Source: Candidatus Schekmanbacteria bacterium RIFCSPLOWO2_02_FULL_38_14
Lineage (GTDB): Bacteria; Schekmanbacteria; GWA2-38-11
NCBI GenBank assembly: GCA_001790855.1
Contig: MGDH01000036.1
Location: 67,604-131,603, forward strand
Length of the DNA: 64,000 nucleotides
Direction of reading: 5' to 3'
The translations under genes and the position numbers were made by a program. This document shows positions 5,243 through 13,506 of this stretch, piece by piece. The notes under the pieces are model-generated. The model searched no databases, was not told the DNA's origin, and saw nothing but the letters and a program-made list of their open reading frames with translations. The first letter of the stretch is position 1, and each line of letters begins with the position of its first letter.

Positions 5243-6802
5243 ATGAGTAACAATCATCGCGAACAATGGGCATCCCGTTTTGGACTCGTTCTTGCAATGG
5301 CAGGCAATGCCATAGGGCTTGGAAACTTCCTTCGCTTTCCTGTTCAGGCAGCGTCAAATGGCGGCGGGGCTTTTATGATACCATATTTCATTGCCCTCAT
5401 CCTGCTGGGTATTCCTTTAATGTGGATAGAATGGTCAATGGGTCGCTATGGAGGCATCAGAGGTCACGGAACAACGCCAGGAATCTTCAACGCCATGTGG
5501 AAACACCCGATTGCAAAATATATTGGCATTCTCGGCATATTCCTTCCTCTGATAGTAACAATCTACTATGTCTATATAGAATCATGGACTCTCGCGTATA
5601 GCTTTTTCTCTGTTACAGGTAAATATTTTGGCATAACATCAAGAGAAGGAATGGGAGAATTCTTTGGAGGATTTCTTGGTTCAGGTAAAAGCCAGTATTT
5701 CACTGGAATAGCAACAGCTTATATATTCTTTCTTATAACTATAGCTATAAATGTTTTTATTATGTACAGGGGGATTGCTAAGGGAATTGAAACTCTTGCA
5801 AAGATTGCAATGCCTGCTCTGTTCCTGTTCGGTATAGTACTGGTAATAAGGGTTTTCACTCTTGGAGTTCCTCACCCTGCCTATCCTGACAGGAATGTAT
5901 TAAACGGACTCGGATTTATCTGGAATCCTGATTTTAGCCAGTTAAAAAATGGCAGCGTATGGCTTGCCGCTACTGGGCAGATTTTTTTCACCCTGAGCAT
6001 CGGGTTTGGTGCTATCCAGACCTATGCAAGCTATTTACGGGAAAAGGACGATGTTGCCCTGTCAGGTTTAACCACTTCAGTATTCAATGAGTTTGCAGAA
6101 GTAATCCTCGGCGGCTCAATAGCCATACCTGTTGCCTGCGCTTTTTTTGGTATTGCAGCCACACAGGAAATTGCCAAAACAGGAGCTTTCAGCCTCGGCT
6201 TTCAGTCAATGCCAATAATCTTTCAGATGTTTCCATTTGGGCAGCTTTTTGGAACACTATGGTTCCTGCTTCTTTTTTTTGCAGGAATAACCTCATCTGT
6301 AGCAATATCAATGCCTGCAGTTGCTTTCTTGGAAGATGAATTTAAGTTAACAAAACCCAAAGCAGTACTGCTGGTATGGACAATCGTATTCATTTGTGTC
6401 CAGCCGGTTATCTTTGGCAAAGGTTTTCTTGATGAATTGGATTTCTGGGCAGGAACCTTTGGCCTTGCCTTTTTTGCTCTTCTTGAAGTCGTCATTTTTG
6501 CATGGATATTTAAGATGGATAAAGGATGGGAAGAAATCCATATAGGTGCAGACATAAAAATACCAAAGGTTTTTTACTACATCATCAAATACATTACCCC
6601 GGTTTATTTACTCATATTGCTTGGTGCGTGGACATGGCAACAGGGAATCTCAGTTATTATGATGGAAGGAGTAAAGCCTGAGGAAATAATATGGAAATGG
6701 GGCGCAAGGTTGTTAATGGTCGGAATTATATTAGCGCTGATAATCTGTGTCAGAATAGCTTGGAAAAACAAAACTGTTTCAGATGAGGTCAGTCCCGAAT
6801 GA
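5243..6802 (+). CDS. metP: Sodium-dependent transporter, NSS/SNF family (MetP type)
   Basis: 519-residue inner-membrane transporter with about 12 helices. The first helix holds the family signature NAIGLGNFLRFPVQAASNGGGAF, whose unwound Gly region binds sodium and substrate in NSS proteins. The start ATG lacks a clear ribosome site. The stop overlaps the start of a 32-residue single-helix gene that matches the MetS small subunit, so the pair is like MetPS of Corynebacterium, which imports methionine and alanine with sodium. The substrate here is inferred from that pairing only; other amino acids are possible. Confidence 0.8.
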   Translation: MSNNHREQWASRFGLVLAMAGNAIGLGNFLRFPVQAASNGGGAFMIPYFIALILLGIPLMWIEWSMGRYGGIRGHGTTPGIFNAMWKHPIAKYIGILGIFLPLIVTIYYVYIESWTLAYSFFSVTGKYFGITSREGMGEFFGGFLGSGKSQYFTGIATAYIFFLITIAINVFIMYRGIAKGIETLAKIAMPALFLFGIVLVIRVFTLGVPHPAYPDRNVLNGLGFIWNPDFSQLKNGSVWLAATGQIFFTLSIGFGAIQTYASYLREKDDVALSGLTTSVFNEFAEVILGGSIAIPVACAFFGIAATQEIAKTGAFSLGFQSMPIIFQMFPFGQLFGTLWFLLLFFAGITSSVAISMPAVAFLEDEFKLTKPKAVLLVWTIVFICVQPVIFGKGFLDELDFWAGTFGLAFFALLEVVIFAWIFKMDKGWEEIHIGADIKIPKVFYYIIKYITPVYLLILLGAWTWQQGISVIMMEGVKPEEIIWKWGARLLMVGIILALIICVRIAWKNKTVSDEVSPE

Positions 6803-6928: not shown

Positions 6929-7102
6929 CTATTCCTTATCTTCTATATAACCGCTCCCTCCGCAAGCTTCACACTCCTCTGTCTCAATAGGAACTCTTTC
7001 ATTCTCTCCCTTTACCCATTCTTCAGCAGCAAAATCTTCAATTCTTGAGACATAACCTGTCCCATTACATTTCTTGCATTTTTTCTTTTTATCCTTGGAC
7101 AT
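6929..7102 (-). CDS. DnaJ-type zinc-finger mini-protein
   Basis: 57-residue protein with two CxxCxGxG-like knuckles: CKKCNGTGYV near the N-terminus and CEACGGSGYI near the C-terminus, joined by an acidic 25-residue stretch. Each knuckle is half of a zinc site as in the DnaJ cysteine-rich domain, so the protein likely holds one zinc by itself or as a dimer. There is no J domain. It sits just upstream of tRNA-Cys on the other side of the transporter and shares no obvious operon. Function unknown; small proteins of this type are common and usually unannotated. Confidence 0.65.
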   Translation of the reverse strand: MSKDKKKKCKKCNGTGYVSRIEDFAAEEWVKGENERVPIETEECEACGGSGYIEDKE

Positions 7103-7118
7103 ATTTTAACCCTCTCAA

Positions 7119-7189
7119 GGCGGCGCCCGGATTTGAACCGGGGAATAACGGTTTTGCAGACCGTCGCCTTACCACTTGGCTACGCCGCC
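7119..7189 (-). tRNA. tRNA-Cys (GCA)
   Basis: 71 nt, minus strand. Acceptor stem GGCGGCG/CGCCGCC, anticodon loop CTGCAAA with GCA, T-arm GGTTCAAATCC. CCA is not encoded. It lies downstream of tRNA-Gly on the same strand and is probably co-transcribed with it. Confidence 0.95.
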
Positions 7190-7198
7190 GGAAAGAAA

Positions 7199-7309
7199 GT
7201 GAATAGTCGATAGTGAATAGGAGTTCGTGAATATCAAAGAATGAAAATAGAATTGGCCACTATCTACTGACTACTATTCACTGTTCACCATTCACTATTC
7301 ACTATTCAC
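7199..7309. repeat. Inverted/direct repeat block of the ATAGTGAATAG family
   Basis: Between the two tRNAs, copies of GTGAATAGT on one side face copies of ACTATTCAC on the other (for example 7201-7220 against 7268-7307), so the block can fold back on itself. The same motif bounds 32847-33016. No gene is seen inside. Confidence 0.7.
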
Positions 7310-7320
7310 AAAAATAAAGA

Positions 7321-7392
7321 GCGGGAAACGGGACTCGAACCCGCGACCCCAACCTTGGCAAGGTTGTGCTCTACCAGCTGAGCTATTCCCGC
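7321..7392 (-). tRNA. tRNA-Gly (GCC)
   Basis: 72 nt, minus strand. Acceptor stem GCGGGAA/TTCCCGC, anticodon loop TTGCCAA with GCC, T-arm GGTTCGAGTCC, D-arm AGCTCAGCTGGTAGAGC. CCA is not encoded. Confidence 0.95.
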
Positions 7393-7404
7393 AAAGTAGT
7401 TCTT

Positions 7405-7432
7405 ATTTTATAAATCTTTTCTTCTTTGTCAA
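7405..7432 (-). promoter_or_regulatory. Promoter of the tRNA-Gly / tRNA-Cys unit
   Basis: TTGACA (7427-7432) and TAAAAT (7405-7410) with a 16-nt spacer on the minus strand, ending 12 nt before the tRNA-Gly 5' end at 7392. Spacing and position fit a strong sigma70 promoter for a tRNA operon. Confidence 0.65.
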
Positions 7433-7529
7433 ACAGAAAATAGCAAATGCCTGTTTAGCAGAAGAGAAAAGGAGAGAAATATCAAGTTAAGATATAGAAG
7501 AGATAAGAAACCTTTTGCAACCAAAATGG

Positions 7530-8945
7530 TTAATTGAATTTTTTTGTATTTTTATAATCTGAGGGAATTAACCATGTATCAAGGTTGTAATTATAGAAAT
7601 CAGTTTTTTTATGGGTTAAGAAGTATAGGAAAAATGAAGCGTAGTGAGTACTTCTACGGTACAATAATAAAATAAGACGGACAAAGTAATAAAAGTAAAC
7701 ACGTTTGGAAGATTCTGGTATTGAATAACGAGATGCCAACTTATTAAAGGGGATAAATATTTCATGGAAAATGTAAGATATTTTTTTCGAGAGACTGATA
7801 TCAGAATGAAACTTTTTATATATCCTCGGAGCAATAGATTTCTTTTTCTCATGACAGAGAATACGATTTTGTGCATCTAATAATATTTTTCCGCTGAATG
7901 GTTTGGGTTTAAGGTTATCAAATAATTTGTTTGGTATTTTCAATCCAAGAATCTCCTTGCAGAGATAAAGCATAAGATAAAGATATTTTCCAACGCCCCA
8001 CTCACAGGCACGAGATTGAAGCTGATTCCAATCAATCCCTGAAGAGTAATGATTAATAATTGTTGCAATGTCGCAGCAAGGTCTTAGACCATGATTTTTG
8101 AATTTTTCATTATGAGAAATATGTAAAGATAGATGTAGCAGCAAATCTTCAGGAGAAAGTACCAGCATGTCTGTTCCATTGGTTTTTACTCTTTTTGCTC
8201 TTTTCCATATTTCTTCTATGGCTATATCAAATGGACTATTCTGATCTGCAATTGTCCAGTGTATCTCTAAATGTTTTATACCTTTTGAATTACTGAAAGG
8301 GTGCGAATGGTGGTGAATTTTTTTATACTGTCTGATAAGGTCAGTTTGTTTTAAAACATCCTGGTCTATTCCGAAGTAAGAATAAACTTTTTGATTCAAC
8401 TGCGAGTATTTAAACCCATTTTGAAGCAGTAACTTTTCAGCTTTGTCTAAATCTTCTTTTTTTATCAAGATATCTATATCACCCATAGGTCTAAGACCAA
8501 TACCTTTATACACAAATTGGGCAAGATGGCTTCCCTTGAGAAGGATAACCTTTATCTCCGCTGCGTGGAGAATTTCTATTACTTTGAATAAATTTTTAAA
8601 ATTTGTTTCATTGACAATGCATGCTTTTAGATAGGCTAATTTAATTTGCTGTAGAAAATTGTCTGGAATGCCTGAATGTTGCAGAAGTGAAGGTTTTTCT
8701 TTAATGATTTTGTACAATAAAGAGGCTGTTTTCCAGCATATTGATTTTTCATAAACCACATTCCAGTCAATATTTGAAAAGTTAAAATTCACAAAATCGT
8801 CGTCATTTTCGCCACTGAATTCTGAGCGAAGGCAGTTAATGATAAATTGTTCTTCAGGCAGTAGTTTCAGATTATTGGTTGGTTCTACGCTAAAGAATTT
8901 TTGCATTTGTCTAATCTGTGAAAGGCTTTGGGAGGCTTGTTTCAT
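7530..8945 (-). CDS. Nucleotidyltransferase-fold protein of the radical-SAM peptide operon
   Basis: Up to 471 residues. The core (about 128-175) reads VILLKGSHLAQFVYKGIGLRPMGDIDIL: the GS and the Asp-x-Asp pair (D156, D158) match the minimal nucleotidyltransferase fold of the NTP_transf_5 group of uncharacterised transferases. The rest is helical with no recognised motif. The ATG at 8945 overlaps the upstream gene by 35 nt; an in-frame ATG at 8906 would avoid this, and neither has a clear ribosome site. It is the last gene of the operon starting at 13384. Proteins of this group often accompany PqqD-like and HPr-kinase-like proteins in peptide cassettes; its substrate is unknown. Confidence 0.75.
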   Translation of the reverse strand: MKQASQSLSQIRQMQKFFSVEPTNNLKLLPEEQFIINCLRSEFSGENDDDFVNFNFSNIDWNVVYEKSICWKTASLLYKIIKEKPSLLQHSGIPDNFLQQIKLAYLKACIVNETNFKNLFKVIEILHAAEIKVILLKGSHLAQFVYKGIGLRPMGDIDILIKKEDLDKAEKLLLQNGFKYSQLNQKVYSYFGIDQDVLKQTDLIRQYKKIHHHSHPFSNSKGIKHLEIHWTIADQNSPFDIAIEEIWKRAKRVKTNGTDMLVLSPEDLLLHLSLHISHNEKFKNHGLRPCCDIATIINHYSSGIDWNQLQSRACEWGVGKYLYLMLYLCKEILGLKIPNKLFDNLKPKPFSGKILLDAQNRILCHEKKKSIAPRIYKKFHSDISLSKKISYIFHEIFIPFNKLASRYSIPESSKRVYFYYFVRLILLLYRRSTHYASFFLYFLTHKKTDFYNYNLDTWLIPSDYKNTKKFN

Positions 8946-9567
8946 CTAAGAACAGCCGGAAAGGTCGCTTTATCTGCCATCGATTCTTTCCTGGCTTAAG
9001 CCTGCCAATTATATGCTTTCCCATTAGTAATTGCAGTTCTTTTCCAGTAGGGCGGCCAAAACAAAGAACCCGTGCTTTCATCCGGGTGGGTATAAAGCAC
9101 CTTAAAAGGCCTGATCGGGCTAACCAGCGATAGATAGGGCGTAGAAATGTTAGGATTTTTAAGTTTACCATATGAGTTGCTTTAATTGTGAGAAGAAATA
9201 ATCGTCCTGTCATTCCCCCGTATATGCGCAACTGCGTGCTTCCCCTTTTAGCATATACTACTTTTCCGACTATACTGTCAGAGGTAAGGATGTATGAATC
9301 AATATTACTGTTGTTATCCCCCTGCGTTGTAATTCCTTGTGAGTTTACAGAGATTACTCTGTGAGCAGATTTTCTATCACTTCCTGGAGGAAGGAAAACA
9401 ATTATATCTCCCCGCCGGATTCTTTTACCATTGTAGGACATGACTTGAAGTATATCCAGAGTCTTAAGAGTAGGATTCATGGACGTACCTGTGTAGATTA
9501 TAGTTTTCAGAGAATCATTAGGAAACTTTGAAATCATTGGGATGATATATTTTGATTTCTTTTCCAT
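8911..9567 (-). CDS. Signal-peptidase-like protein, S26 Ser/His type
   Basis: 218 residues. Box B is GTSMNPTLKTLD with the nucleophile Ser at residue 29; box D is RRGDIIVFLPPGSDRKSAHRVI with His69 where ordinary bacterial signal peptidases have Lys; box E is TQGDNN. This Ser/His dyad is the archaeal/ER (SipW-like, S26B) form. There is no clear N-terminal membrane anchor; hydrophobic stretches lie at about 120-145. The gene sits between the HPr-kinase-like and nucleotidyltransferase genes. The obvious inference is leader removal from the operon's precursor peptide, but that is not proved by sequence. Confidence 0.75.
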   Translation of the reverse strand: MEKKSKYIIPMISKFPNDSLKTIIYTGTSMNPTLKTLDILQVMSYNGKRIRRGDIIVFLPPGSDRKSAHRVISVNSQGITTQGDNNSNIDSYILTSDSIVGKVVYAKRGSTQLRIYGGMTGRLFLLTIKATHMVNLKILTFLRPIYRWLARSGLLRCFIPTRMKARVLCFGRPTGKELQLLMGKHIIGRLKPGKNRWQIKRPFRLFLDETSLPKPFTD

Positions 9568-9606: not shown

Positions 9607-10521
9607 TCATAAAACTTTTTCCATCTCATCCCAGAATTGACCTGCGAGGCTAAATCGGAGGACGAATGATGGGATTGCTTTAGAAAGTTCACACGCATTG
9701 TCAAAAATCTTTTTTTTAAGTACCATTTTTTCTTCAGGAACAAGATTTTCCAGACTTTTGCGATATATTGCTATAGCTGATTGATTAATCAATATAGCAG
9801 CTTGTCCATGTCCTATCGGTATAGCTTCGTCCTTCTCTGCCTGTTCTAAGAAAAAAAATGCTTTTAGCGGGACATGATGTTGGACATTCCACGTCCGCTT
9901 GCTAACATCCACGATGTATTCACTCCATGAGGGGATAGGATGTGCCATGTATTGTTTTTGTTTATCGCTCACAATGAGTGTTTCATCATCGCACAAGGCA
10001 CGCCAATGAAGTGGAAGACGCCTACAACAGGTTGATTTCCCGGTTTTTGATGGAGCCGATAACACTATACCATTTCCCTTCCATTCAAGAAGTGCTCCGT
10101 GTAGGGGAAGTCCTCCAGAATCTTGTGCGCGGTGATATATAGGATGGAGTGTATACCACATTCCCATTATATTTCCATTAAATGTTGCCTTATTTTGTAA
10201 TTTGCAGACCACATCCTTCACTGCGTCATTATACCAGATTCTAATATATTTTACCTGTCGGCTCTTCCACCCTTTCCTTGGAAGTTTTAACATTAAATCC
10301 TTATCAACACTGCACATTTCCTGTATGTTCTTACTTTTGTCGCAATCATCTAATACAACTATCAGGTTAGTACCTTCTTTTAGTTCATAAGGTTGAAGTC
10401 CCATTGCCTTTGCCCAGCTACTTGCCAATTCCCTTGAATTTTCATTGCTTTTGATGTTCCATTGCTGGCCATCGGCTAAGACAAGGCTATACACATAGCC
10501 AGAATTATCTGACTTTTTCAA
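9607..10521 (-). CDS. HPr-kinase-like P-loop protein (ScmC-like) of the peptide operon
   Basis: 304 residues. A P-loop SAPSKTGKST (155-164) follows LPLHGALLEWKGNGIVL, and CDDE (177-180) follows, the same order as in HPr kinase/phosphorylase, where the Asp pair is catalytic. The N-terminal 110 residues are not HPr-kinase-like. The product matches, from memory, the ScmC type of protein of the SynChlorMet cassette. No HPr or PTS gene is in the window, so a peptide or partner protein is the more likely target. It starts 33 nt after the precursor peptide stop. Confidence 0.7.
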   Translation of the reverse strand: MKKSDNSGYVYSLVLADGQQWNIKSNENSRELASSWAKAMGLQPYELKEGTNLIVVLDDCDKSKNIQEMCSVDKDLMLKLPRKGWKSRQVKYIRIWYNDAVKDVVCKLQNKATFNGNIMGMWYTLHPIYHRAQDSGGLPLHGALLEWKGNGIVLSAPSKTGKSTCCRRLPLHWRALCDDETLIVSDKQKQYMAHPIPSWSEYIVDVSKRTWNVQHHVPLKAFFFLEQAEKDEAIPIGHGQAAILINQSAIAIYRKSLENLVPEEKMVLKKKIFDNACELSKAIPSFVLRFSLAGQFWDEMEKVL

Positions 10522-10554: not shown

Positions 10555-10722
10555 TTATCCACCAGTCAAATGTCCGTCATCATAACCAATATTACAAGTT
10601 CCGGCATTTCCTCCCTCAGTACACACATCGCCACCTGCAGTTTCTATTTTTTCATCATTTGGTGATTTTGGCTCGGGGTTTTTTAGATTTAGTGATTTTA
10701 ATTCAGGTTTTTCGTACTTCAT
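10555..10722 (-). CDS. Radical-SAM-modified (RiPP) precursor peptide, ScmA-like
   Basis: 55-residue peptide with an excellent ribosome site (AAAGGAGG, 6 nt before ATG). The first half is a charged leader (MKYEKPELKSLNLKNPEPKS), the kind PqqD-like domains bind. The second half is a Gly/Cys core with Ala-Gly-Gly at 29-31, Cys34, Cys43, four Gly pairs in all and a Gly-Gly C-terminus. It lies between the second radical SAM gene and the HPr-kinase-like gene, on the same strand as the whole operon. Cys residues 34 and 43 could receive thioether or other radical-SAM crosslinks; Gly30-Gly31 is a possible leader cleavage point. The modification is not predictable from sequence alone. Confidence 0.8.
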   Translation of the reverse strand: MKYEKPELKSLNLKNPEPKSPNDEKIETAGGDVCTEGGNAGTCNIGYDDGHLTGG

Positions 10723-10833
10723 ATTTCCTCCTTTCTTAATGAGATTGTTTGCAAATATTTTTTCTGATTTTTAAATTAACCATAAAATTAGCCTTCCTAA
10801 AAATACTATCCTATGTCATTTTGCTTTACCTCC

Positions 10834-11964
10834 TTATAAAGTTGTTGGACGAGTACGTGTCTCAGGGAAAAGTTCCTTTTTTTGAGCCTCGTCGCAGTAC
10901 CAGAAAGGTGCCCAGAAATTCTTACTCAGGTAATAATTCTGGGCAACACAGTTTCCAAAGCATTGACCCTTCATAAGACATTCACCACAAATACCTTCAA
11001 AACGGTTTGGTAGCCCCTCCCTGAGTTCCAGAAGTACAGGTGCACTATTCCAAATATCTTTCAGGGATTCCGAGCTTGCATGTCCAAAAACGAGCTCAGG
11101 GACAGTCTGTCCAATGCCACACAGGGCATATGAGCCATTTGCCAGAACACCAAGAATTCCCAGTATCCCGCATACTCCACAACCATCCCCATTATTGCCA
11201 AACATTTTGCTAAGCGGTCTAAAAGCCAGCGGGTGGCTATAGTGAAGACGCAAATCTGTTGAAGATGAAAGGGTATTTCCCACCCACTGCCCAAGATATA
11301 CAAGCTCCTCAATAGTCAGAGTTTCTCCTGCCTTGCGCATCTTCTCTCCCCTTGCAGTAGGCTGTACAATATTGAACTTGACTGAACCAGCACCCAATGA
11401 TTCAGCTAAACGTACAATAGCCTTCATCTGGTCTTTGTTAAGGTGCATGATTGTCATGATTATCTGAGGTTTGAAGCCAGCTTTTACAAGATTCCTTATG
11501 CCATCCAATGCAGACTTAAAACAACCAGTTACACCTCGTATCCTTTCATGGGTTTCAGCATCAGCGCCATCAAGACTTACTGAAACAAAGGGTTTTTTAC
11601 AGGATGCCATCTCTTGAGCTAATTCAGGTGTGCATAGAACACCATTGGTTTCTACGGTAAGGCGAATATCTTGAGTTCGAATCAGTTCCAGGATTTCATG
11701 GATATTTGGATGCAGAAGGGGTTCACCGCCAGTTAACTTGACACTGGAAAGCCCCATGGGTTTTGACTGTTCAAGTATTGATCTAAAGAGGTCTAAATCA
11801 AGTGCAGGATAAGAGTAGTTGCCATTTTGGTATTTAGGTTCAATCCAGCAATGATGGCAGTAAAGGTTGCATCCTTCTGTCAGATAAAAATAGATCTGAT
11901 TCAATCTATATCTTGGTTTTTTAATTTTTTCTGTTTCTTCTTTAGTCATAGTAGGTTTTAGCAT
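10834..11964 (-). CDS. Radical SAM/SPASM peptide-modifying enzyme 1 (ScmF/ScmE-like)
   Basis: 376 residues. The radical SAM site CNLYCHHC (C32, C36, C39) binds the [4Fe-4S] cluster that cleaves S-adenosylmethionine; GGEP follows (KLTGGEPLLHP). The C-terminal 120 residues form a SPASM domain rich in Cys: DGCGVCGIL, YALCGIG, ICGECLMKGQCFGNC and a last WYCDEAQ, enough for two more clusters. Such enzymes install crosslinks on ribosomal peptides. The gene overlaps the other radical SAM gene by 7 nt and precedes the precursor by 111 nt. The two enzymes are divergent in sequence, so they probably do different steps. Confidence 0.88.
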   Translation of the reverse strand: MLKPTMTKEETEKIKKPRYRLNQIYFYLTEGCNLYCHHCWIEPKYQNGNYSYPALDLDLFRSILEQSKPMGLSSVKLTGGEPLLHPNIHEILELIRTQDIRLTVETNGVLCTPELAQEMASCKKPFVSVSLDGADAETHERIRGVTGCFKSALDGIRNLVKAGFKPQIIMTIMHLNKDQMKAIVRLAESLGAGSVKFNIVQPTARGEKMRKAGETLTIEELVYLGQWVGNTLSSSTDLRLHYSHPLAFRPLSKMFGNNGDGCGVCGILGILGVLANGSYALCGIGQTVPELVFGHASSESLKDIWNSAPVLLELREGLPNRFEGICGECLMKGQCFGNCVAQNYYLSKNFWAPFWYCDEAQKKELFPETRTRPTTL

Positions 11965-13088
11965 ATATTATTTGATGTAATTAATAATTTCACATCCGGA
12001 AGTTTTCCTCCCTCTTTGAGAAATCGCCTGAGGCAGGCATCAGGGCTTGGATGATTCTCATTACCAGAGAGTGTAAAAGCCAGAGCAGGGCAGTTACCAG
12101 TGCAATAGTTAATATAATCACACCCCTTGCAGAATTCAAAATCACTCAATGGAATATTGCATCGTTCTCTTATTCTTTTAAGTTCGGGATGATTGTGCCA
12201 GACTTCTCTGAGTTTATAGTTGTTGATTTTACCTAACTCAATATGACTCATATGAATACATGGAACCATCATCCCGTCAGCGCGTACTGCTATCTTGTTC
12301 ATTGGCTGTCCGCCACAAGCTGTCAGATATCCTCGTCCGGGTATTCGTTCTTTCCCATCTTTACGGGAATTTTCCATCATAATCCAATGTTTCCCATCAG
12401 CCAGAGGCCCTGCAGATGCATTAATGCGTCCATTGTATTTCTTATTGAGTTTCAAAAGTGTTTCCATTGCCAAGGAACGTTTTTCAGCAGTAAGCTGAAC
12501 CTGCTCAGCATTCTGACGGCATAGCCCCATATAAGAAGCAGAACTGGTTGAAAAACAAGGAAGCCCAATTTCTTCCAGCAACAGCCTTGCAACTCCTTCA
12601 AGGTCTCCGACATTATATCTATGAATTGTAACCCGGACAGAGACAGTGACATGATGTTTCTGGAGGTATCTTATTCCCTCCATTGCTTTGTAAAAACTTC
12701 CATTACCCCTGCAGGCGTCATGTGTCATTGGAATTGAACCGTCAATTGAAATCTGCACTCCATTGCAACGTCCGGTTGAAGCCAAGAATGCTGCCGTTTC
12801 ATCAGTAATCAATGTTCCATTGCTGAGGATGCTAAAGCGCATTCGGTTTTGTACAATTCCATTGATAAGTTCCTTCAAATCTTCCCGACAAAATGGTTCT
12901 CCTCCCTGAAGTGTAACATTCATGACAGTGCAATGATTCAATTCCTCAAAGAATTTAAGCCATTTTTCTTTGGGCAAATCTTGACCTACATCACCGGCAC
13001 TTGTGAAATGGCTACAGTATTTACACCTCAGATTACATCTGTTAGTTATGGCTAAATCAACAGATTGTGGTGTTTTCATTATTTTCAT
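11958..13088 (-). CDS. Radical SAM/SPASM peptide-modifying enzyme 2 (ScmE/ScmF-like)
   Basis: 376 residues. CNLRCKYC (C18, C22, C25) is the radical SAM cluster site, with TLQGGEPF after it. The C-terminal SPASM domain shows TACGGQ, MVPCIHM, then CNIPLSDFEFCKGCDYINYC, TGNC and a last DACLRRF, the usual ligands of two auxiliary clusters. It starts 8 nt after the PqqD-like gene and overlaps the next radical SAM gene by 7 nt, so the three are translationally linked. Assignment to ScmE or ScmF of the SynChlorMet cassette needs a profile search. Confidence 0.88.
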   Translation of the reverse strand: MKIMKTPQSVDLAITNRCNLRCKYCSHFTSAGDVGQDLPKEKWLKFFEELNHCTVMNVTLQGGEPFCREDLKELINGIVQNRMRFSILSNGTLITDETAAFLASTGRCNGVQISIDGSIPMTHDACRGNGSFYKAMEGIRYLQKHHVTVSVRVTIHRYNVGDLEGVARLLLEEIGLPCFSTSSASYMGLCRQNAEQVQLTAEKRSLAMETLLKLNKKYNGRINASAGPLADGKHWIMMENSRKDGKERIPGRGYLTACGGQPMNKIAVRADGMMVPCIHMSHIELGKINNYKLREVWHNHPELKRIRERCNIPLSDFEFCKGCDYINYCTGNCPALAFTLSGNENHPSPDACLRRFLKEGGKLPDVKLLITSNNIC

Positions 13089-13096
13089 AATTTATA

Positions 13097-13384
13097 TTAA
13101 CTCTTCTCAGCCTCGTATCCTATTAGCCCATGTTTGACCATATCCTGAATGAACTCTTTGATGTGCTCAGAGGCATCCTCCGGTACGGTTTCACAGCTTT
13201 TACGTAGCTCTTTTAGTATGTCTTCAACAGTATGCTTGCCATCAAGACGTTTCCATACAAATACACTTACCGGATTAATGCCGAAGGCATTGCCTGAATC
13301 AGGATCAAAAAGAATAGCCCAATCGTCAAACTCTTCTCTAAGGACTACCATAGGATTAGCTATGGGCTTATTGTTGTCTGGCAT
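13097..13384 (-). CDS. PqqD-like peptide-binding protein (ScmD-like)
   Basis: 95 residues, first gene of the peptide operon. The PqqD/RRE winged-helix fold is recognisable by DWAILFDPDSGNAFGINPVSVFVWKRLDGKHTVEDILKEL and the closing DMVKHGLI. In PqqD this domain grips the leader of the precursor and hands it to the radical SAM enzyme. Standing alone, it could serve both radical SAM enzymes downstream. Confidence 0.85.
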   Translation of the reverse strand: MPDNNKPIANPMVVLREEFDDWAILFDPDSGNAFGINPVSVFVWKRLDGKHTVEDILKELRKSCETVPEDASEHIKEFIQDMVKHGLIGYEAEKS

Positions 13385-13478: not shown

Positions 13479-13506
13479 AATATAGACAGAAAAGAAATCT
13501 TGTCAA
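13479..13506 (-). promoter_or_regulatory. Probable sigma70 promoter of the radical-SAM peptide operon
   Basis: Minus-strand TTGACA (13501-13506), 16-nt spacer, TATATT (13479-13484), about 95 nt upstream of the first gene start at 13384. Confidence 0.6.

Follow-up and report, generated by a model that had tools for sequence, protein, structure and literature searches.

The locus described here raises the question whether a very short open reading frame, lodged between the genes for a radical SAM enzyme and a kinase-like protein, encodes the precursor of a modified peptide and, if so, what the neighbouring enzymes would do with it. The window, by which we mean the whole stretch of 64,000 nucleotides that was analyzed, is taken from contig MGDH01000036.1 (positions 67,604 to 131,603) of Candidatus Schekmanbacteria bacterium RIFCSPLOWO2_02_FULL_38_14. 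The reading frame lies at 10555-10722 on the minus strand; read from 10722 to 10555 it opens with ATG, runs for 55 codons, ends with TAA and translates to MKYEKPELKSLNLKNPEPKSPNDEKIETAGGDVCTEGGNAGTCNIGYDDGHLTGG. Its ribosome binding site AAAGGAGG (10727-10734, minus strand) stands 4 nt upstream of the ATG and is a full match to the anti-Shine-Dalgarno sequence, at a slightly short spacing. The predicted leader comprises residues 1-31 (10630-10722) and carries the motif YEKPEL at residues 3-8. It is followed by a first unit Cys34-Thr-Glu-Gly37 (10612-10623), the linker GNAGT, a second unit Cys43-Asn-Ile-Gly46 (10585-10596) and a tail; both units were recognised by motif count and alignment. An earlier note on this DNA had described a short gene with a perfect ribosome site, two core cysteines at positions 34 and 43 and a size that makes it easy to miss, and was right on each point. 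The peptide matches no model in Pfam or NCBIfam. When it was searched against the genome it comes from, a single copy was returned, the one at 10722-10555.

The peptide gene belongs to an operon of seven minus-strand genes, encoding in order ScmD, ScmE, ScmF, the peptide, ScmC, an S26 protease and an NTP_transf_5 protein, so that it sits between ScmF and ScmC. ScmD (13097-13384) is a PqqD-like candidate leader-binding protein matching TIGR04248 with 142.7 bits (cut-off 100) and also PF05402. ScmE (11958-13088; TIGR04250, 626 bits, cut-off 400) and ScmF (10834-11964; TIGR04251, 598 bits, cut-off 400) are both radical SAM/SPASM maturases, and the start of ScmF overlaps the end of ScmE. ScmC (9607-10521) is kinase-like, with a PEPCK/HPr-kinase fold, and matches TIGR04249 with 304 bits (cut-off 125). 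The signal-peptidase-type S26 protease (8911-9567), recognised with NCBIfam and Pfam models, is a candidate leader peptidase, and the nucleotidyltransferase of the NTP_transf_5 family (7530-8945) matches PF14907 with 183.5 bits and has a conserved KG(S)...DxD motif. A possible operon promoter, TTGACA-16-TATATT, lies at 13479-13506 (minus strand), ~95 nt before ScmD, and is a consensus match only. The adjacency of ScmC, ScmD, ScmE and ScmF, all scoring far above the NCBIfam equivalog cut-offs, places the cassette in SynChlorMet. Its layout is that of radical SAM RiPP systems, in which a short leadered precursor is encoded next to radical SAM enzymes and a protein that binds the leader, all in a conserved unit. 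So far SynChlorMet has been known through models of its enzymes, and no description of its substrate was found among the models or in open papers: neither NCBIfam nor Pfam yielded a matching precursor model, to our knowledge the NCBI text on these models does not identify a precursor, and a search of the open literature for the cassette name, the model numbers and ScmE/ScmF found no paper naming them.

A YxxPxL leader beside a PqqD protein would also be expected of a small lasso-type precursor in a tailored cluster of the paeninodin type, and lasso reviews mention HPr-kinase-like and nucleotidyltransferase genes (PMC8498205). However, none of the seven cassette proteins gave a Pfam or NCBIfam match to a lasso cyclase (asparagine-synthetase-like) or a lasso protease (transglutaminase-like). 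A lasso peptide was rejected for want of a cyclase gene in the cassette, and we hold this explanation to be very improbable.

At the operon end two tRNA genes were found (7118-7189 and 7320-7392, minus strand); a search for regulatory RNA beside the peptide gene returned only these two tRNAs, within 7118-7392. The GC content of the cassette equals that of its surroundings except around the nucleotidyltransferase gene (7501-9000), where it falls to 0.33; together with the tRNA neighbours this is possibly the mark of an insertion beside a tRNA. Outside the cassette, at 6929-7102 (minus strand), there is a 57-residue reading frame with CxxCxGxG pairs like those of the DnaJ zinc finger.

Among genome contigs, ScmF as query led to a single related cassette, L003, and further relatives were therefore sought in whole genomes with the models for ScmC and ScmF. 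L003 belongs to a Calditrichaeota MAG and is the nearest cassette found (ScmF 70% identical). Its gene order matches that of the window and it encodes the peptide MEYEKPELKELDTGHGQQCMNGSSAPGETCLSGGSAAQCTIGSAVGGPQ between ScmF and ScmC, with the leader YEKPELK and C-x2-G units as in the window peptide. The occurrence of such a peptide at the matching ScmF-ScmC site indicates that the window peptide is more than a chance reading frame. In L003 a PqqB-like gene of the metallo-beta-lactamase fold (6012-6800, minus strand) converges on the cassette; it was not found in the window cassette. Such peptides were also seen at about twenty more ScmE/ScmF loci from several phyla, L073 and L112 among them; some of these loci end at contig ends, where the enzyme pair is partly visible. 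A CxxG peptide was present in or beside every ScmE/ScmF cassette examined, with a broken core in L072. It is usually encoded directly after ScmF and in some loci after ScmC or the protease, with one exception before ScmD and one on the opposite strand, and several loci encode two CxxG peptides. In viral contigs nothing closer than remote radical SAM proteins (22-34% identical) was found and in plasmids only one Rhizobium protein (27% identical), and a weak Calditrichota match in G011 falls in a repetitive stretch.

These relatives bear on the simplest objection, namely that the reading frame is spurious and untranslated. It has only 55 codons and no family model matches it, but against this stand the strong ribosome site, the reciprocal profile search and the fact that 27 precursors agree in their position, leader and core. 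The objection was rejected, and we give it practically no weight. The earlier note had taken the gene to be the precursor of the adjacent PqqD/double radical SAM system and had proposed to look for homologues in related cassettes. These were found and share both the leader and the CxxG units, and neither of the refuting outcomes that the note had named, a lack of homologues in related cassettes or substitution of both Cys, was observed. The gene is real and its peptide class had been guessed well. We regard it as very nearly certain that the peptide serves the SynChlorMet cassette as its ribosomal precursor.

What the precursors have in common was determined on a set of 27, consisting of the window peptide and its relatives in or beside other ScmE/ScmF cassettes. 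For the motif count L072, with its broken core, entered with its first 60 residues only, L036 was shortened at its start, and a single Cys in the leader of L038 was exchanged to make parsing easier. In each of the 27 a leader with the motif [YW]xxP is followed by repeats of C-x-x-G. Gly is found at position +3 of 128 of the 133 core cysteines and at +4 of the remaining 5, while shuffling of the non-Cys core residues (2000 shuffles) gave a mean of 31 cysteines with Gly at +3 (sd 4.6, maximum 48). The residues at +1 and +2 vary freely, Ala occupies Cys+6 in 63 of the 133 cases and the spacing from Cys to Cys is mostly 9-14. We define the CxxG-repeat precursor family here by two features, a leader with [YW]xxP and two or more C-x-x-G units. 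The window peptide, with Y3..P6, C34-G37 and C43-G46, is its smallest complete member and has two units. P6, C34, G37, C43 and G46 are unchanged in all 20 rows of an alignment.

Of the residues that the earlier note had singled out, both cysteines are thus invariant in the 20 aligned rows; the Gly pairs and the Gly-Gly end, which it had taken to be meaningful, are not conserved. They were rejected as a motif, the constant feature being the single Gly at Cys+3. Its suggestion of two Cys for two radical SAM enzymes did not survive the comparison either. The relatives have 2-7 core cysteines, often an odd number (3, 5, 7) and once ~20, and in every case a single ScmE and a single ScmF accompany them, so that one Cys per enzyme was rejected. 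Since the cysteines differ in number from precursor to precursor and the enzyme pair does not, repeated action of the enzymes follows. The largest precursor seen is the giant one of L112 (2990-3733, genome G120), which has ~20 CxxG units and is encoded directly after a divergent ScmE/ScmF pair. A nine-unit CxxG precursor with a YEPP leader was observed near a contig start in L113 (467-910, genome G229), where its neighbours are cut off.

The tie between these peptides and ScmE/ScmF was examined with a peptide profile, which matches almost exclusively genomes with ScmE/ScmF. In 82 genomes of one phylum it matched 7/7 genomes with ScmF, and the single extra match is to a peptide truncated where its contig ends. 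In 385 genomes of many phyla it matched 9/10 genomes with ScmF and in addition G120, G229 and G092. G120 has the divergent ScmE/ScmF pair beside its CxxG peptide; G229, with the nine-unit peptide, gave no strong ScmF match, its neighbours being cut off by the contig end. The matches in G092 were rejected as precursors, since they are a DNA tandem repeat and not peptides. Fisher tests gave 1e-15 for the 82 genomes and 2e-9 for the 385, values that ignore phylogeny and include profile rows taken in part from the searched genomes. Matches independent of the profile rows are those in G219, G072, G189, G120 and G229, the first four of which have ScmE/ScmF.

ScmD/ScmC cassettes lacking ScmE/ScmF provide a contrast. 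Ten such loci were found, all in Calditrichota, and none has a CxxG peptide. In six of them there are seven Cys-free YxxP peptides, and in the other four none was seen. Genome G010 holds both cassette kinds (L023, L025). In the ScmC tree the difference corresponds to one or two changes, and the contrast is therefore not made up of many independent events. The Cys-free peptides are acidic and were observed in L024 (7514-7696), L026 (6150-6329), L027, L032, L033 and L023; an example is ...DETAKGYSPEPDPPDSGGDDDKESKSFDWL, with Gly exactly 17 residues past the Tyr. Some of these cassettes also have an ABC transporter. The Cys-free YxxP peptides appear to be a second type of peptide from the same core, so far undescribed.

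Exceptions in the other direction are two. In L115 of genome G329 (7140-7703, minus strand) two tandem CxxG precursors are encoded beside a PqqD fusion, a GT4 glycosyltransferase and an ScmC-like protein, with no ScmE/ScmF within ~7 kb, and in L116 of genome G328 there is one orphan CxxG peptide. They keep alive the explanation that the cysteines are targets of a non-radical modification such as Cys glycosylation, of metal binding or of disulfides, with ScmE/ScmF acting elsewhere. However, ScmE/ScmF are encoded elsewhere in both G328 and G329, on separate contigs, and might act in trans. Odd numbers of cysteines (3, 5, 7) speak against disulfides, the peptides of the sister cassettes lacking ScmE/ScmF are Cys-free, and no glycosyltransferase was recognised with Pfam in the window cassette. 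We consider this explanation improbable. That the CxxG peptide is the substrate of ScmE/ScmF is well supported, and action of these enzymes on the CxxG units themselves is very likely.

The three radical SAM and seven SPASM cysteines are invariant in 15 ScmE and 21 ScmF sequences. Among solved structures the best sequence match of ScmE is SkfB (E 4e-18, ~24% identical), and its AlphaFold2 model (pLDDT 90.8) has fold matches in the PDB to SkfB, SuiB, anSME, CteB, PqqE and EpeE. A model of ScmC (pLDDT 87.1) has the PEPCK kinase fold, with Z 14 over ~250 residues; the best 50 matches listed in the fold search included PEPCK and no HPr kinase, and NCBIfam gave a weak HPr-kinase-like signal. The P-loop of ScmC is invariant and its DD motif conserved. 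Ser29 and His69 of the S26 protease are conserved in its relatives; such a Ser/His pair is also present in archaeal and ER signal peptidases. The KG...DxD motif of the nucleotidyltransferase is likewise conserved.

By analogy with PqqD and lasso leaders, ScmD would bind the YxxP leader, after which ScmE and ScmF would modify each C-x-x-G unit, Cys34-Gly37 and Cys43-Gly46. In this step the Gly alpha carbon would most likely lose a hydrogen and be joined to the Cys sulfur, giving one four-residue S-C-alpha ring per unit. Since Gly is the sole constant partner of the Cys, such a bond from Cys to Gly+3 is the simplest product, and we give it about an even chance. A Cys-derived thioether, as the earlier note had suggested, is the leading hypothesis; what speaks for a sactipeptide is the precedent of streptosactin and the similarity of ScmE to SkfB. 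The constant Gly could instead serve enzyme recognition, a turn or another modification. ScmE/ScmF may act on the CxxG units without forming the alpha-thioether: the product could be a ranthipeptide-like thioether to a beta or gamma carbon of the variable residues, a C-C bond or an epimerised residue, and the Gly would then serve recognition or a turn. The SPASM fold neighbours span thioether, C-C and epimerase enzymes (SkfB, SuiB, CteB, PqqE, EpeE), and the constant presence of two different enzymes suggests two different reactions. Against a ranthipeptide-like bond in particular, the positions inside the unit vary freely, which makes a fixed side-chain acceptor unlikely, and the constant partner of Cys is a Gly, which has no beta carbon. 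This alternative is unlikely, though it deserves more weight than the others.

The S26 protease would probably remove the leader at a Gly just before the first Cys. In most relatives a Gly is found 16-17 residues past the motif Tyr/Trp of the leader, and the Cys-free peptides have it at 17 without exception, position -3 being Ala or Val; this shared position fits one protease site in both cassette kinds. The leader of the window peptide is ~13 residues longer than usual, and from its sequence the cut is predicted after Ala29-Gly30-Gly31. ScmC and the nucleotidyltransferase would probably add further groups, for example phosphate or a nucleotide, and their fold and motifs suggest that they may phosphorylate or nucleotidylate the product. 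Taken as a whole, the sequence of ScmD binding to an Scm precursor, ring closure on CxxG by ScmE/ScmF and S26 cleavage appears likely.

No described substrate was found for the Scm cassette, and the C-x-x-G unit now marks out a family of precursors for it. These peptides are a substrate family with a clear unit, which makes the reaction directly testable, and the sister cassettes lacking the radical SAM enzymes, with their Cys-free peptides, provide a natural control. If each unit becomes a Cys-Gly thioether, this would be a two-enzyme system closing rings on 2 to ~20 units, of use in the production of chained thioether peptides. It is conceivable, as a tentative proposal, that the cassettes represent an undescribed RiPP class of many phyla, in which 2 to ~20 chained Cys-Gly rings are made by a fixed radical SAM pair and then phosphorylated or nucleotidylated.

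Several known systems share parts of this arrangement. Lasso clusters with tailoring resemble the Scm cassette in their YxxP leader and their PqqD-like, HPr-kinase-like and nucleotidyltransferase genes, but Scm has two radical SAM enzymes in place of a lasso cyclase and protease. SkfB, the sporulation killing factor sactisynthase, is the nearest solved match of ScmE in both sequence and fold; its substrate receives a single Cys-Met thioether and has no repeats. Precursors of the freyrasin type do have repeated Cys motifs. In these ranthipeptides (PapA/PapB) thioethers are formed from Cys to a nearby residue (PMC9413430). The acceptor there is Asp or Glu, whereas the constant residue of the Scm peptides is Gly, without a side-chain carbon. 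A near chemical precedent is streptosactin (GggA/GggB) of the streptococcal GGG subfamily, for which S-C-alpha bonds Cys31-Gly34 and Cys25-Ser28 were reported in unnested four-residue rings (PMC8172795), the two rings lying side by side (PMC8172795; PMC13361665). It shares Cys-x-x-Gly with the Scm peptides, a likeness of motif and not a claim of peptide homology. The streptosactin system has one radical SAM enzyme and a 14-residue product and occurs in streptococci, while Scm has two radical SAM enzymes; none of the PqqD, HPr-kinase-like or nucleotidyltransferase partners of Scm is described for streptosactin (PMC8172795). The window cassette itself is SynChlorMet, with all four models matched (TIGR04248, TIGR04249, TIGR04250, TIGR04251).
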